In this document: in pieces, positions 44,616 to 48,593 of the stretch
Position numbering within the stretch: the first letter of the stretch is position 1
Layout of the letters: each line of letters opens with the position of its first letter
Source of the DNA: a bacterium
GTDB lineage: Bacteria > Desulfobacterota > Binatia > DP-6
Assembly (NCBI GenBank): GCA_026129405.1
Contig: JAHCID010000009.1
Span: 124,001 to 188,000 of the forward strand
Direction of reading: 5' to 3'
DNA: 64,000 nt
Notes under the pieces: generated by a model
What the model saw: the letters and a program-made list of their open reading frames with translations, nothing else
Told to the model about the DNA's origin: nothing
Databases searched by the model: none
Made by a program: the position numbers and the translations under genes

Positions 44616-46751
44616 CTAGAATCCCCAGGAAACCGTGCCGTAGAACGACCGCCCCGGCAGCGGGAAGTCGAGCGCATCGCGGGTCTGGTCGTTGGTGAAG
44701 TTCAGGACCTCGAAGCCGATGCGCAGCGGCGCGAACGGCTCGAGCTCGAACCCGACGCCGTAGATGTCGCGCTGGGCCACGAGCTGGGTGTTGGCGGTGT
44801 CGAGCCAGTTGTCGGCAATCAGGTTGGCGTCGAGCCAGAGCCGGCCCGGCCAGACCCGCGCCGCCCAGGCACCGAGCGGCAGCGGACGCGCCGGCGACCA
44901 GGCCAGCTCCGCGCGCGCGTAGGCCTCGTGCGCCGGCCGTCCCGGCAGCTTGTTGCCGTCGTTGAAGGTGCCGCTCTCGTCGACCGCGTCCTGGTGCGTG
45001 TAGTTCGCCGTGAGGCCGACGCGATCCCAAAGGCGGACGGCCGCGGACACCTCGTGGCCGCGCACACGCGCGGCGGCGACGTTGCGGCTCGTGAACACGC
45101 TGACGCTGGTCGGCACGACGACGATGACGTCGTCGATGCGGTTGTCGAAGTAGGCGTACTCGAACGACGCCGCCGTCAGACCGGGCCCGAGCGTCTCGCG
45201 GGCGAGGCGGAAGCCGAGGTCCCAGTTGAGCGTCTTCTCGGGCACCAGATCGGGGTTGCCGATCACCGTGCCGGAAAGCCCGAACAGCTCCTGGAGGCTC
45301 GGCACGCGCTCGTAGTGGCCGGCGTTGCCGAGCAGCTCCACGCCCGGCCAGGGCACCCCGCGTATGCCGAGCCGCGGCGACCAGACGCTGCGGGTGACGA
45401 CGCCGCTCGCGTCGAGGACGGGGGCGAGCCGGGGATCGGGCGGCGCGTCGTCGCGAAAGCCCTCCCAACGCAGCCCCGGCACGATCCACAGGCGCTCGCC
45501 GAGGAGCACGATGCGGTCCTCGGCGCCGACGGTGCCGCGCAGCCGGGTGCGGTCGGGCTGGCGTCCGGGCTCGGCGCCGCGCGAGCCGATCTGGTCGGTC
45601 TGCCCGAAGGTCTCGTGGCTCACGGCGAGCAGCAGCGACGGCAGCTGGTGGCGGCCGAGCGCGCTCTCGAGCACCACCTGGCCGCCGCCGACGAGGCTCG
45701 TGTCCTCGACGTCGCTCGTCAGCTGGATCACCGGACCGAGCGGGTCCTCGAACTTCTGCCACTGGTAGAGGAGGAACGCGCTGCCGTCGACGCGCACCGG
45801 CAGGCCCGGGCTCGGCTCGACGATGGCGTCGAGGCGTGAGAGGTGCCGCACGGTCTGGCGCCGGGCGTTGGCGTCCTGCGGGAAGCCGCGGCCGGGATAG
45901 CCGCGGTTGCGCCCGAAGGTGTCGGTCGTGAGCGCGAGCTGGAGCCCGTCCTGCGGCCGCCAGCCGACCCGCCCGGTGAGGCTGCCGAGGTTGAAGTCGT
46001 TGTTGATGCGGGTGAGCTCGCGGTCGTCGTCGGGGTTCTCGGGCGTGCCGACGTCGTCGCGGTACTGGAAGTCGCCCAGCGTGCCCATGTAGTGGCCGAA
46101 CAGGAGGTAGTCCCAGTCGCCGACCGTGGCGCTGCGGGTGACGTCGACCTTGCGGGTCTCGAACGAGCCGTACGACGCGCTGGCCGCCGTCACCGGGGAC
46201 GCGCCGGGGCGGCGGCTGACGACGTTGACGACGCCCCCGGGACCGGCCTGCGCGAAGCGCAGCGGCGTCGTGCCGCGGTAGACCTCGACGCGCTCGACGG
46301 CGTCGAGCGGCAGCTCGCTCAGGTCGACGGTCTCGTTCTCCGCCCGCGAGAGCGGCACGCCGTCGAGGTAGACCTGCACCTGCCGCGGCGAGAAGCCGCG
46401 CACCGAGACGGTGGCGAAGTCGCCGAGGCCGCCGAAGCGGCGCACCTGGACGCCGACCGAATCGGAGAGCGCGTCCGCCAGCGTCTCGACCCTGGTCGGG
46501 GCCGAGCGCGTGTCGATCAGCGTCGCGAAGCCGGTGGCGTCGATCTCGCGCAGATCCGGGAGCACCGGCGGCGCCGTCACCACGACCTCGGGCAGGCGCT
46601 GGGCCGGCATATCCTGCCCGTCCGGCTCCACCGCGACGGCCTCCGCTCCGCTCTCCGCAGGCCCGGCGGGCGCCGCACGCTCCTCGGCGACGACCGACGT
46701 CGCGGCCGCCAGCGCGAGAAGCCCGGCCCTGATGCACGCCCGAATCGCGAT
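44616..46751 (-). CDS. btuB: TonB-dependent outer-membrane receptor for cobalamin, with non-standard start codon
   Basis: This protein of about 711 residues forms a TonB-gated beta-barrel for B12 uptake. After a signal sequence (IRAGLLALAAATSVVA) come a TonB-box-like PEVVVTA, the plug domain (SVGVQVRRFGGLGDFATVSVRG, VYLDGVPL, VEVYRGTTPLRF, GPGGVVNVVSR) and a barrel ending in a terminal Phe (YGTVSWGF). Cobalamin specificity is supported by the cobalamin riboswitch directly upstream. No ATG, GTG or TTG exists in frame between the riboswitch and the signal peptide. An ATC at 46749-46751 sits 6 nt after a strong AAGGAG and is taken as the likely start; ATT at 46743-46745 is the alternative. Confidence 0.88.
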   Translation of the reverse strand: MAIRACIRAGLLALAAATSVVAEERAAPAGPAESGAEAVAVEPDGQDMPAQRLPEVVVTAPPVLPDLREIDATGFATLIDTRSAPTRVETLADALSDSVGVQVRRFGGLGDFATVSVRGFSPRQVQVYLDGVPLSRAENETVDLSELPLDAVERVEVYRGTTPLRFAQAGPGGVVNVVSRRPGASPVTAASASYGSFETRKVDVTRSATVGDWDYLLFGHYMGTLGDFQYRDDVGTPENPDDDRELTRINNDFNLGSLTGRVGWRPQDGLQLALTTDTFGRNRGYPGRGFPQDANARRQTVRHLSRLDAIVEPSPGLPVRVDGSAFLLYQWQKFEDPLGPVIQLTSDVEDTSLVGGGQVVLESALGRHQLPSLLLAVSHETFGQTDQIGSRGAEPGRQPDRTRLRGTVGAEDRIVLLGERLWIVPGLRWEGFRDDAPPDPRLAPVLDASGVVTRSVWSPRLGIRGVPWPGVELLGNAGHYERVPSLQELFGLSGTVIGNPDLVPEKTLNWDLGFRLARETLGPGLTAASFEYAYFDNRIDDVIVVVPTSVSVFTSRNVAAARVRGHEVSAAVRLWDRVGLTANYTHQDAVDESGTFNDGNKLPGRPAHEAYARAELAWSPARPLPLGAWAARVWPGRLWLDANLIADNWLDTANTQLVAQRDIYGVGFELEPFAPLRIGFEVLNFTNDQTRDALDFPLPGRSFYGTVSWGF

Positions 46752-46757
46752 CCCCAG

Positions 46758-46775
46758 CTCCTTCCCCGCGGAAGG
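46758..46775 (-). promoter_or_regulatory. Shine-Dalgarno-sequestering hairpin downstream of the riboswitch
   Basis: On the minus strand, CCTTCC (46775-46770), loop GCGG and GGAAGG (46765-46760) form a perfect 6-bp stem whose 3' arm contains most of the AAGGAG ribosome-binding site. This is a plausible expression platform by which B12 binding blocks translation of the receptor. Confidence 0.6.
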
Positions 46776-46788
46776 CGTCCGCTGGCCT

Positions 46789-46957
46789 CGGCGCGCAGGT
46801 CTTCTGGCTCGGGGATCGTCCTCCCCCGGTTCCTTCCCGCCCTCGGGCAGTGGTCGTGACCGGGATCGTCCCCCCACACAGCTGCGGGGCAGCGGGGGCT
46901 TCGCACCCCCTTCCCTCGCGCGTCGAGGTCGGGGGCACGTACCGGCCCCTCGCGCCG
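46789..46957 (-). ncRNA. Cobalamin riboswitch aptamer
   Basis: The minus strand carries the conserved cobalamin riboswitch elements in order. These are P1 (CGGCGCG, complement of 46951-46957), GCCGGTACGTGCC, the core GAGGGAAGGGGGTGCGAAGC, CCGCTGCCCCGCAGC, GACCACTG, GGCGGGAAGG and the B12 box AGCCAGAAGACCTGC (complement of 46795-46809). The 3' arm of P1 (CGCGCCG) closes at 46789-46795. The layout closely parallels the E. coli btuB leader. It fills most of the 329-bp gene-free stretch between btuB and the divergent hydratase gene, and should repress the receptor when adenosylcobalamin is abundant. Confidence 0.93.
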
Positions 46958-47717: not shown

Positions 47718-48593
47718 ATGCAGAGGACAACGAATCGATGGATGGGGCGACTCGCCATGCTCGGGCTGGCGGGTGCGCTGTTCGCGACGCCGGCGGCGGC
47801 GGGCCCGAACAGCGGGAAGATCGAGTTCAGCGTGGGCATGGACTTCACCACGGCCTACTTCTTCCGCGGCATCCTCCAGGAGCGCAACGGCTTCATCTGG
47901 CAGCCCTACGGTGAGGTGAACATCAACCTCTTCGCGGACGAAGACGAGAACGCGATCTTCACGGGCTTCACGCCCTTCATCGGCACCTGGAACTCGGTCC
48001 ACTCGAAGGCCACCGGCGCCGTCAGCGGCCCGACCAACTGGTACGAGTCCGACGTCTACCTCGGCGCCAAGTTCACCTTCTTCAACAAGCTCGAGGTGAA
48101 GCCCTTCTACATCGCCTACACCTATCCGAACGGCGCCTATTCCACGGTGCAGGAGTTCGACATGTCCTTCAGCCTCGACGACAGCGAGTGGCTGGGCATG
48201 TGGGCGATGTCGCCGAGCTTCCTCTGGGCGCACGAGCTCGAGGGCACCGCCCTCGGCGACAAGCGCGGCGACTACATGGAGTTCAACGCCGGCCCGTCGT
48301 TCACCATCCTCGAGAGCGAGGACTATCCGGTGTCGCTGGCGGTGCCGCTCCAGCTCGGCATCGGCATCGACAACTACTACGAGGGCCCGTTCAGCAACTC
48401 GAACGAGACCTTCGGCTTCTTCCGGGCGGGCGCGATCTTCAGCGTCCCGCTCGCCTTCATGGGCGAGGACTACGGCTCGTGGTCGGCCAGCGCCGGCGCC
48501 TACGTCTACACCTTCGGCAACGTGAACAAGTTCTACAACGACAACGACGACCCCTGGGTCGTCGGCACCTGGTCGATCAACATGACCTACTGA
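47718..48593 (+). CDS. TorF-like putative outer-membrane beta-barrel protein
   Basis: A 291-residue exported protein with signal peptide MLGLAGALFATPAAA. The mature sequence alternates aromatic and polar residues in short beta strands (VGMDFTTAYFFRGIL, VYLGAKFTFFNKLEVKPFYIAYTY) and ends with a WSINMTY-type strand, all typical of an outer-membrane barrel. The early TTAYFFRGI block is characteristic of the TorF porin group. Cargo unknown. A strong ribosome site precedes the ATG, and a stable hairpin lies 38 bp after the stop, so it is probably a single-gene transcript. Confidence 0.75.
   Translation: MQRTTNRWMGRLAMLGLAGALFATPAAAGPNSGKIEFSVGMDFTTAYFFRGILQERNGFIWQPYGEVNINLFADEDENAIFTGFTPFIGTWNSVHSKATGAVSGPTNWYESDVYLGAKFTFFNKLEVKPFYIAYTYPNGAYSTVQEFDMSFSLDDSEWLGMWAMSPSFLWAHELEGTALGDKRGDYMEFNAGPSFTILESEDYPVSLAVPLQLGIGIDNYYEGPFSNSNETFGFFRAGAIFSVPLAFMGEDYGSWSASAGAYVYTFGNVNKFYNDNDDPWVVGTWSINMTY

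Follow-up and report, generated by a model that had tools for sequence, protein, structure and literature searches.

The E. coli infC gene (IF3) starts with AUU. An AUU start is also cited for E. coli pcnB in the portion of PMC13009471 drawn on here, which describes S. aureus infC, ccpN and cvfC1 as starting with AUA or AUU and reports that the conserved AUU/AUA starts of S. aureus, with strong Shine-Dalgarno sequences (SDs), give about 10% of the output of AUG in reporters. For E. coli btuB, the part of PMC11162775 consulted describes a stem-loop past the cobalamin aptamer that sequesters the SD when AdoCbl is present.

The btuB-like gene described here shares with infC and pcnB of E. coli and infC, ccpN and cvfC1 of S. 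aureus a strong SD, the lack of a canonical start codon (ATG, GTG or TTG) in relatives as well, and a putative start of the kind that IF3 discriminates against, with presumed low output. Those genes keep one codon within their group, whereas the btuB-like genes of the family to which this bacterium belongs (f1 below) alternate between AUC, CUG and AAG-ACG from genus to genus, and the f1 gene, unlike them, encodes a riboswitch-controlled receptor. As in the E. coli btuB riboswitch, which controls translation, its cobalamin aptamer is followed by a stem-loop that could hide the SD; E. coli btuB, however, starts at AUG. Six btuB-type loci of other families (G007, G034, G047, G040, G027 and G055:C9) likewise have an SD formed by the 3′ arm of a hairpin and a start a few nt further on, but there the start is ATG. 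A literature search at the level of titles and abstract openings found no btuB or other riboswitch-controlled gene with an AUC, CUG or ACG start.

The window, by which we mean the whole 64,000-nucleotide stretch of DNA analysed (G000:C9:124001-188000), comes from a genome, G000, of 5.63 Mb in 15 contigs. The relevant features, in window coordinates, are the following.

44616-46751, minus strand: btuB-like TonB-dependent receptor reading frame, 711 aa from the putative AUC start (translation and domains)
46733-46797, minus strand: outer helix 46797-46790 / 46740-46733 of the minimum free energy (MFE) fold, which would enclose SD and start
46749-46751, minus strand: ATC, the most likely start codon, 6 nt past AAGGAG, the commonest spacing in the genome
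46754-46785, minus strand: expression-platform hairpin, CCAGC (46785-46781) / CCTTCC (46775-46770) / GGAAGG (46765-46760) / GCTGG (46758-46754) (alignment and predicted fold)
46755-46757, minus strand: CTG, rival start codon inside the hairpin, abutting AAGGAG and common to the three g2 orthologues
46758-46763, minus strand: AAGGAG, candidate SD in the 3′ arm of the hairpin (sequence, alignment and fold)
46797-46916, minus strand: cobalamin riboswitch aptamer (RF00174, 84.9 bits against a gathering threshold of 31.5)
46875-46877, minus strand: GTG in the aptamer, the closest upstream in-frame canonical codon, rejected as a start (no SD; absent in the other five orthologues)

The receptor has both barrel and plug domains (PF00593, 2e-38, and PF07715, 5.9e-19), and its PDB relatives include BtuB chains. 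Its score against the NCBIfam BtuB model TIGR01779, 104.3 bits, is under the curated cut-off of 599.7, so we call it btuB-like, a name that rests on plug, barrel and riboswitch context.

Read along the minus strand, the start region runs AAGGAG (46763-46758), CTGGGG, ATC (46751-46749), GCG, ATT (46745-46743), CGG. The reading frame is open through the aptamer, and between the aptamer end at 46797 and the signal peptide it contains no in-frame ATG, GTG or TTG, just as the initial annotation had said with correct coordinates; the near-cognate codons close to the signal peptide are CTG, ATC, ATT and ATC. In DNA of 73% GC the absence of a canonical codon means little by itself: about 2.9% of random codons are of that kind, a run of 12 contains none in 71% of cases, and the expectation for an ATH codon at any one in-frame position is about 1.2%. 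Less easily put down to chance are a 711-residue receptor reading frame that is intact yet has no start, and the same lack in all six family orthologues.

These orthologues come from a search of 148 genomes of the class, seven of which, the window genome included, belong to f1. Riboswitch matches were found in 54 of 58 sampled relatives; 13 riboswitch places were read in f1 and 59 in other families, while several at contig ends or with weak partial matches were left unread. A btuB-like gene lies directly behind a riboswitch in six f1 genomes from four genera, G000 (g1), G001, G005 and G006 (g2), G002 (g3) and G004 (g5). In the seventh, G003, btuB has no riboswitch directly before it and its start is ambiguous, the GTG there being distant from an SD. 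The five homologues in our alignment, which includes G003 and omits G006, are 55-72% identical to the window protein. In all six riboswitch-controlled orthologues the stretch from the riboswitch to the signal peptide's hydrophobic segment is free of canonical starts. In five of them there is none in the 29-55 codons that separate the upstream in-frame stop from the hydrophobic segment, so that an upstream canonical start is impossible there; in the window the only one is the GTG in the aptamer. Non-canonical initiation, or recoding, thus looks unavoidable across the family, judging from these reading frames.

The near-cognate codon itself is not the same in the relatives. AUC is found in g1; the three species of g2 have no near-cognate codon close to the signal peptide other than CTG and an AAG inside the SD; and g3 and g5 offer AAG-ACG, in both genera 8 and 7 codons ahead of the hydrophobic segment. 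It seems, then, that what is conserved is the absence of a canonical start, while the codon drifts or turns over. If none were required and the six stretches were independent, all six would lack a canonical codon with a probability of 0.12. GC-rich drift often leaves a stretch without canonical codons, and selection against ATG therefore cannot be claimed; we say only that a canonical start is apparently not needed in the f1 btuB-like genes, and make no stronger claim.

The hairpin CCAGC-CCTTCC-loop-GGAAGG-N-GCTGG is invariant or nearly so in all 12 aligned f1 platforms. It is also kept in the platforms of a second riboswitch-controlled gene family, which encodes secreted proteins and has its signal peptide about 100 nt further downstream. 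The conservation of AAGGAG reflects the hairpin and so is no independent proof of an SD: the "strong AAGGAG" of the initial annotation is there as a sequence, but it is part of a structure that persists where the gene starts further downstream. Covariation gives no test because the hairpin pairs hardly vary. The predicted MFE fold of the window contains the hairpin, with an energy no better than that of shuffled sequence (z -0.34), and an outer pairing like that of the window is predicted in two paralogous platforms of G000. We infer from the analogy with E. coli btuB that B12 may repress the gene through this SD-hiding hairpin.

The spacing between SD and codon helps to choose among the candidates. 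Of 208 G000 genes with a single unambiguous ATG, 62 carry a GGAG no more than 20 nt away, and their GGAG-ATG spacing peaks at 6 nt (14 of 62) and 7 nt (12 of 62), with none at 0. Measured from AAGGAG, ATC lies at 6 nt and CTG at 0; the good spacing first ascribed to ATC is thus the commonest in the genome. In the six out-of-family loci named above, which have the same hairpin-SD layout, the ATG stands at the place held by ATC in the window. The original proposal of an AUC (or AUU) start therefore stands in that a non-canonical start is well supported and AUC is the best-placed codon; AUC is not conserved, however, and AUU is unlikely. Initiation at AUU 46745-46743, or at a second AUC at 46733-46731, is improbable: both codons are in frame, but with 12 and 24 nt between AAGGAG and themselves they miss the modal spacing, and they would leave a shorter n-region.

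A start at CUG 46757-46755, as in g2, is doubtful but has to be taken seriously. No near-cognate codon in g2 other than CTG would leave a normal signal peptide, a start at CTG would yield good signal peptides in both genera (MERAAIVLVLAAAV.. in g2 and MGIAIRACIRAG.. in the window), and the codon lies inside the hairpin, so that B12 would hide the codon itself. On the other hand, a spacing of 0 would oblige the upstream GGGG to act as SD, and GCTGG is kept in all 12 platforms even when it is out of frame with the gene. Recoding, by an out-of-frame start with a frameshift or by some change at the RNA level, we consider quite unlikely; the g2 hairpin loops carry a GTG in another frame with a run of G after it, but this GTG lacks an SD and does not occur in g1, g3 or g5, and C-to-U editing cannot make AUG from AUC. 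Much the same low probability attaches to a sequencing or assembly error that conceals a true ATG, the first of two outcomes that were to overturn the initial annotation. Several genes of the G000 assembly look frameshifted or stop-interrupted, which makes a local base error conceivable, yet an error in one genome cannot explain the finding, since the orthologues of five other genomes share the lack. The second such outcome, homologues that start at an in-frame GTG within the riboswitch, is not seen in the other five orthologues. Translation from the aptamer GTG 46877-46875 through the riboswitch is very improbable: the frame is open from that codon onward, but it has no SD, the 42 codons between it and ATC are rich in Arg, Gly and Pro, and the other five orthologues lack a canonical codon at that place, their frame being closed by a stop further upstream. 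A downstream canonical start was rejected, as it would delete the signal peptide and in G006 would fall in the TonB box.

A blind codon-usage scan for coding boundaries over about 484 kb of G000 (369 genes) located a canonical codon no more than about 15 codons from the boundary in 350 of the 369 genes, and a general use of odd starts in this genome is thus not supported. The 19 flagged genes include infC (boundary at ATA), the window btuB and the riboswitch-controlled gene C9:120893. Of the other 16, eleven were examined closely; four of these seem to be frameshifted or interrupted by a stop, six seem to have misplaced boundaries, and one MFS-like gene is unexplained. The last five, judged from the scan listing alone, were taken to be misplaced boundaries with a canonical codon just outside the range. 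The four interrupted-looking genes are C3:87485, C3:92028, C3:15648 and C1:118696 (menE-like with a TGA, menD-like, endonuclease-like and photolyase-like, named by eye), and the MFS-like transporter, G000:C1:7843 on the minus strand, lacks a canonical start in the vicinity of its N-terminus. In C9:120893, and in the paralogue that follows the riboswitch at C9:114766, an in-frame GTG comes directly past AAGGAG-CTGG and would give a leader of about 25 codons; since this GTG allows a canonical start, neither is counted as start-less. The fourth riboswitch of G000 precedes an apparent ribonucleotide reductase gene (by eye) with an ATG.

Among the 14 plug-domain matches of f1, six are the riboswitch-controlled btuB genes; of the eight without a riboswitch, six have plain canonical starts and two are ambiguous (L113, a btuB of G003, and L121 of G005). 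As an out-of-family control, a script found 17 receptor-like ORFs at the 59 riboswitch places, one of which (G013) was dropped for want of a signal-like segment; the same script recovered five of the six f1 genes, and G006 was added by name. All 16 remaining receptors have some canonical codon, a well-placed ATG in 13 (that of G010 by eye) and a doubtful one in G050, G011 and G035, where it lies 15-22 codons off or falls on the hydrophobic segment. The Fisher value for family against out-of-family genes, 1.3e-5, ignores phylogeny and is descriptive only. A further receptor, in G036, was missed by the script and recognized by eye; it shows no canonical codon in the neighbourhood of the signal peptide, and the trait may therefore reach beyond f1. 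The starts of this G036 receptor (L091, G036:C33) and of the G035 receptor (L090, G035:C47) are thus ambiguous. A scan of viral contigs found no relative.

Resembling S. aureus infC in this respect, infC begins with ATA and has a strong SD before it in all f1 genomes readable there, six in number (C3:164438, L193, in G000; also G001, G002, G003, G005 and G006; G004 is masked), and it begins with ATA in G015, of another family, as well. At least one more gene of the lineage thus has a start codon of the type that IF3 discriminates against. Two changes in the initiation machinery were considered and rejected. IF3 has not been lost, as PF00707 is present in all 11 genomes searched, and no initiator tRNA with an altered anticodon was found: ARAGORN read all 44 tRNA places, none with an odd assignment that reads AUC, and the initiator-type tRNA of G000 (L232, C1-A72) carries a CAT anticodon. 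Its anticodon stem is AGG/CCU, not GGG/CCC, in all seven f1 genomes and in 21 of the 30 loci read (L232, L243-L272). The part of PMC4611024 drawn on here calls the three GC pairs of this stem universal. The AGG/CCU stem does not explain the finding because it is common to families whose btuB starts with ATG.

Overall, we think it on balance probable that the window gene is translated from a non-canonical start, most likely AUC 46751-46749, and throttled by both the riboswitch hairpin and the weak start. Without B12 the hairpin would be open and AAGGAG would recruit the 30S subunit, which would start inefficiently on AUC with the initiator tRNA; once B12 binds, SD and start would be hidden by the hairpin together with the outer helix. 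The weak codon would set a low ceiling on receptor synthesis and would tie it to IF3 activity. The codon used, the OFF logic of the riboswitch, the IF3 effect and any benefit are what we infer here. Spacing at the genome mode, the out-of-family ATG at the same place and the infC precedent in the lineage suggest AUC; against it stand its lack of conservation in sister species, an SD-like sequence kept for the hairpin, and the unremarkable fold energy.

A wider reading, offered tentatively, is that receptor synthesis is held down throughout f1 by a maintained absence of canonical starts. Different genera would use AUC, CUG or, in g3 and g5 and possibly also for the secreted proteins under riboswitch control, ACG, and B12 uptake would be linked to the activity of IF3. 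If that were true, ACG starts in g3 and g5 would break the rule of a central U in bacterial start codons, stated as universal in the same portion of PMC4611024. If the weak start is real, control would be two-layered, by riboswitch and by start-codon discrimination, across genera with codon turnover, and the orthologous start regions would form a natural set for near-cognate initiation, possibly including ACG. Gene finders limited to ATG, GTG and TTG will truncate the f1 receptors, which then lose their signal peptides.

The second riboswitch-controlled family, that of the secreted proteins, is found at G000:C9:119409-120893 and 113157-114254 (L072), in a cluster that also holds B12-uptake-like genes (by eye), and has homologues in G003, G005 and G006. 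The secreted proteins gave no Pfam match in the two stretches tested and no NCBIfam match in the one tested; they could be B12-binding surface proteins. Other families have different riboswitch-controlled secreted proteins. Finally, window positions 47718-48593, beside the window btuB, and G000:C9:109245-110072, in the second B12-related cluster, encode the same N-terminal sequence (GPNSGKIEFSVGMDFTTAYFFRGILQ...).
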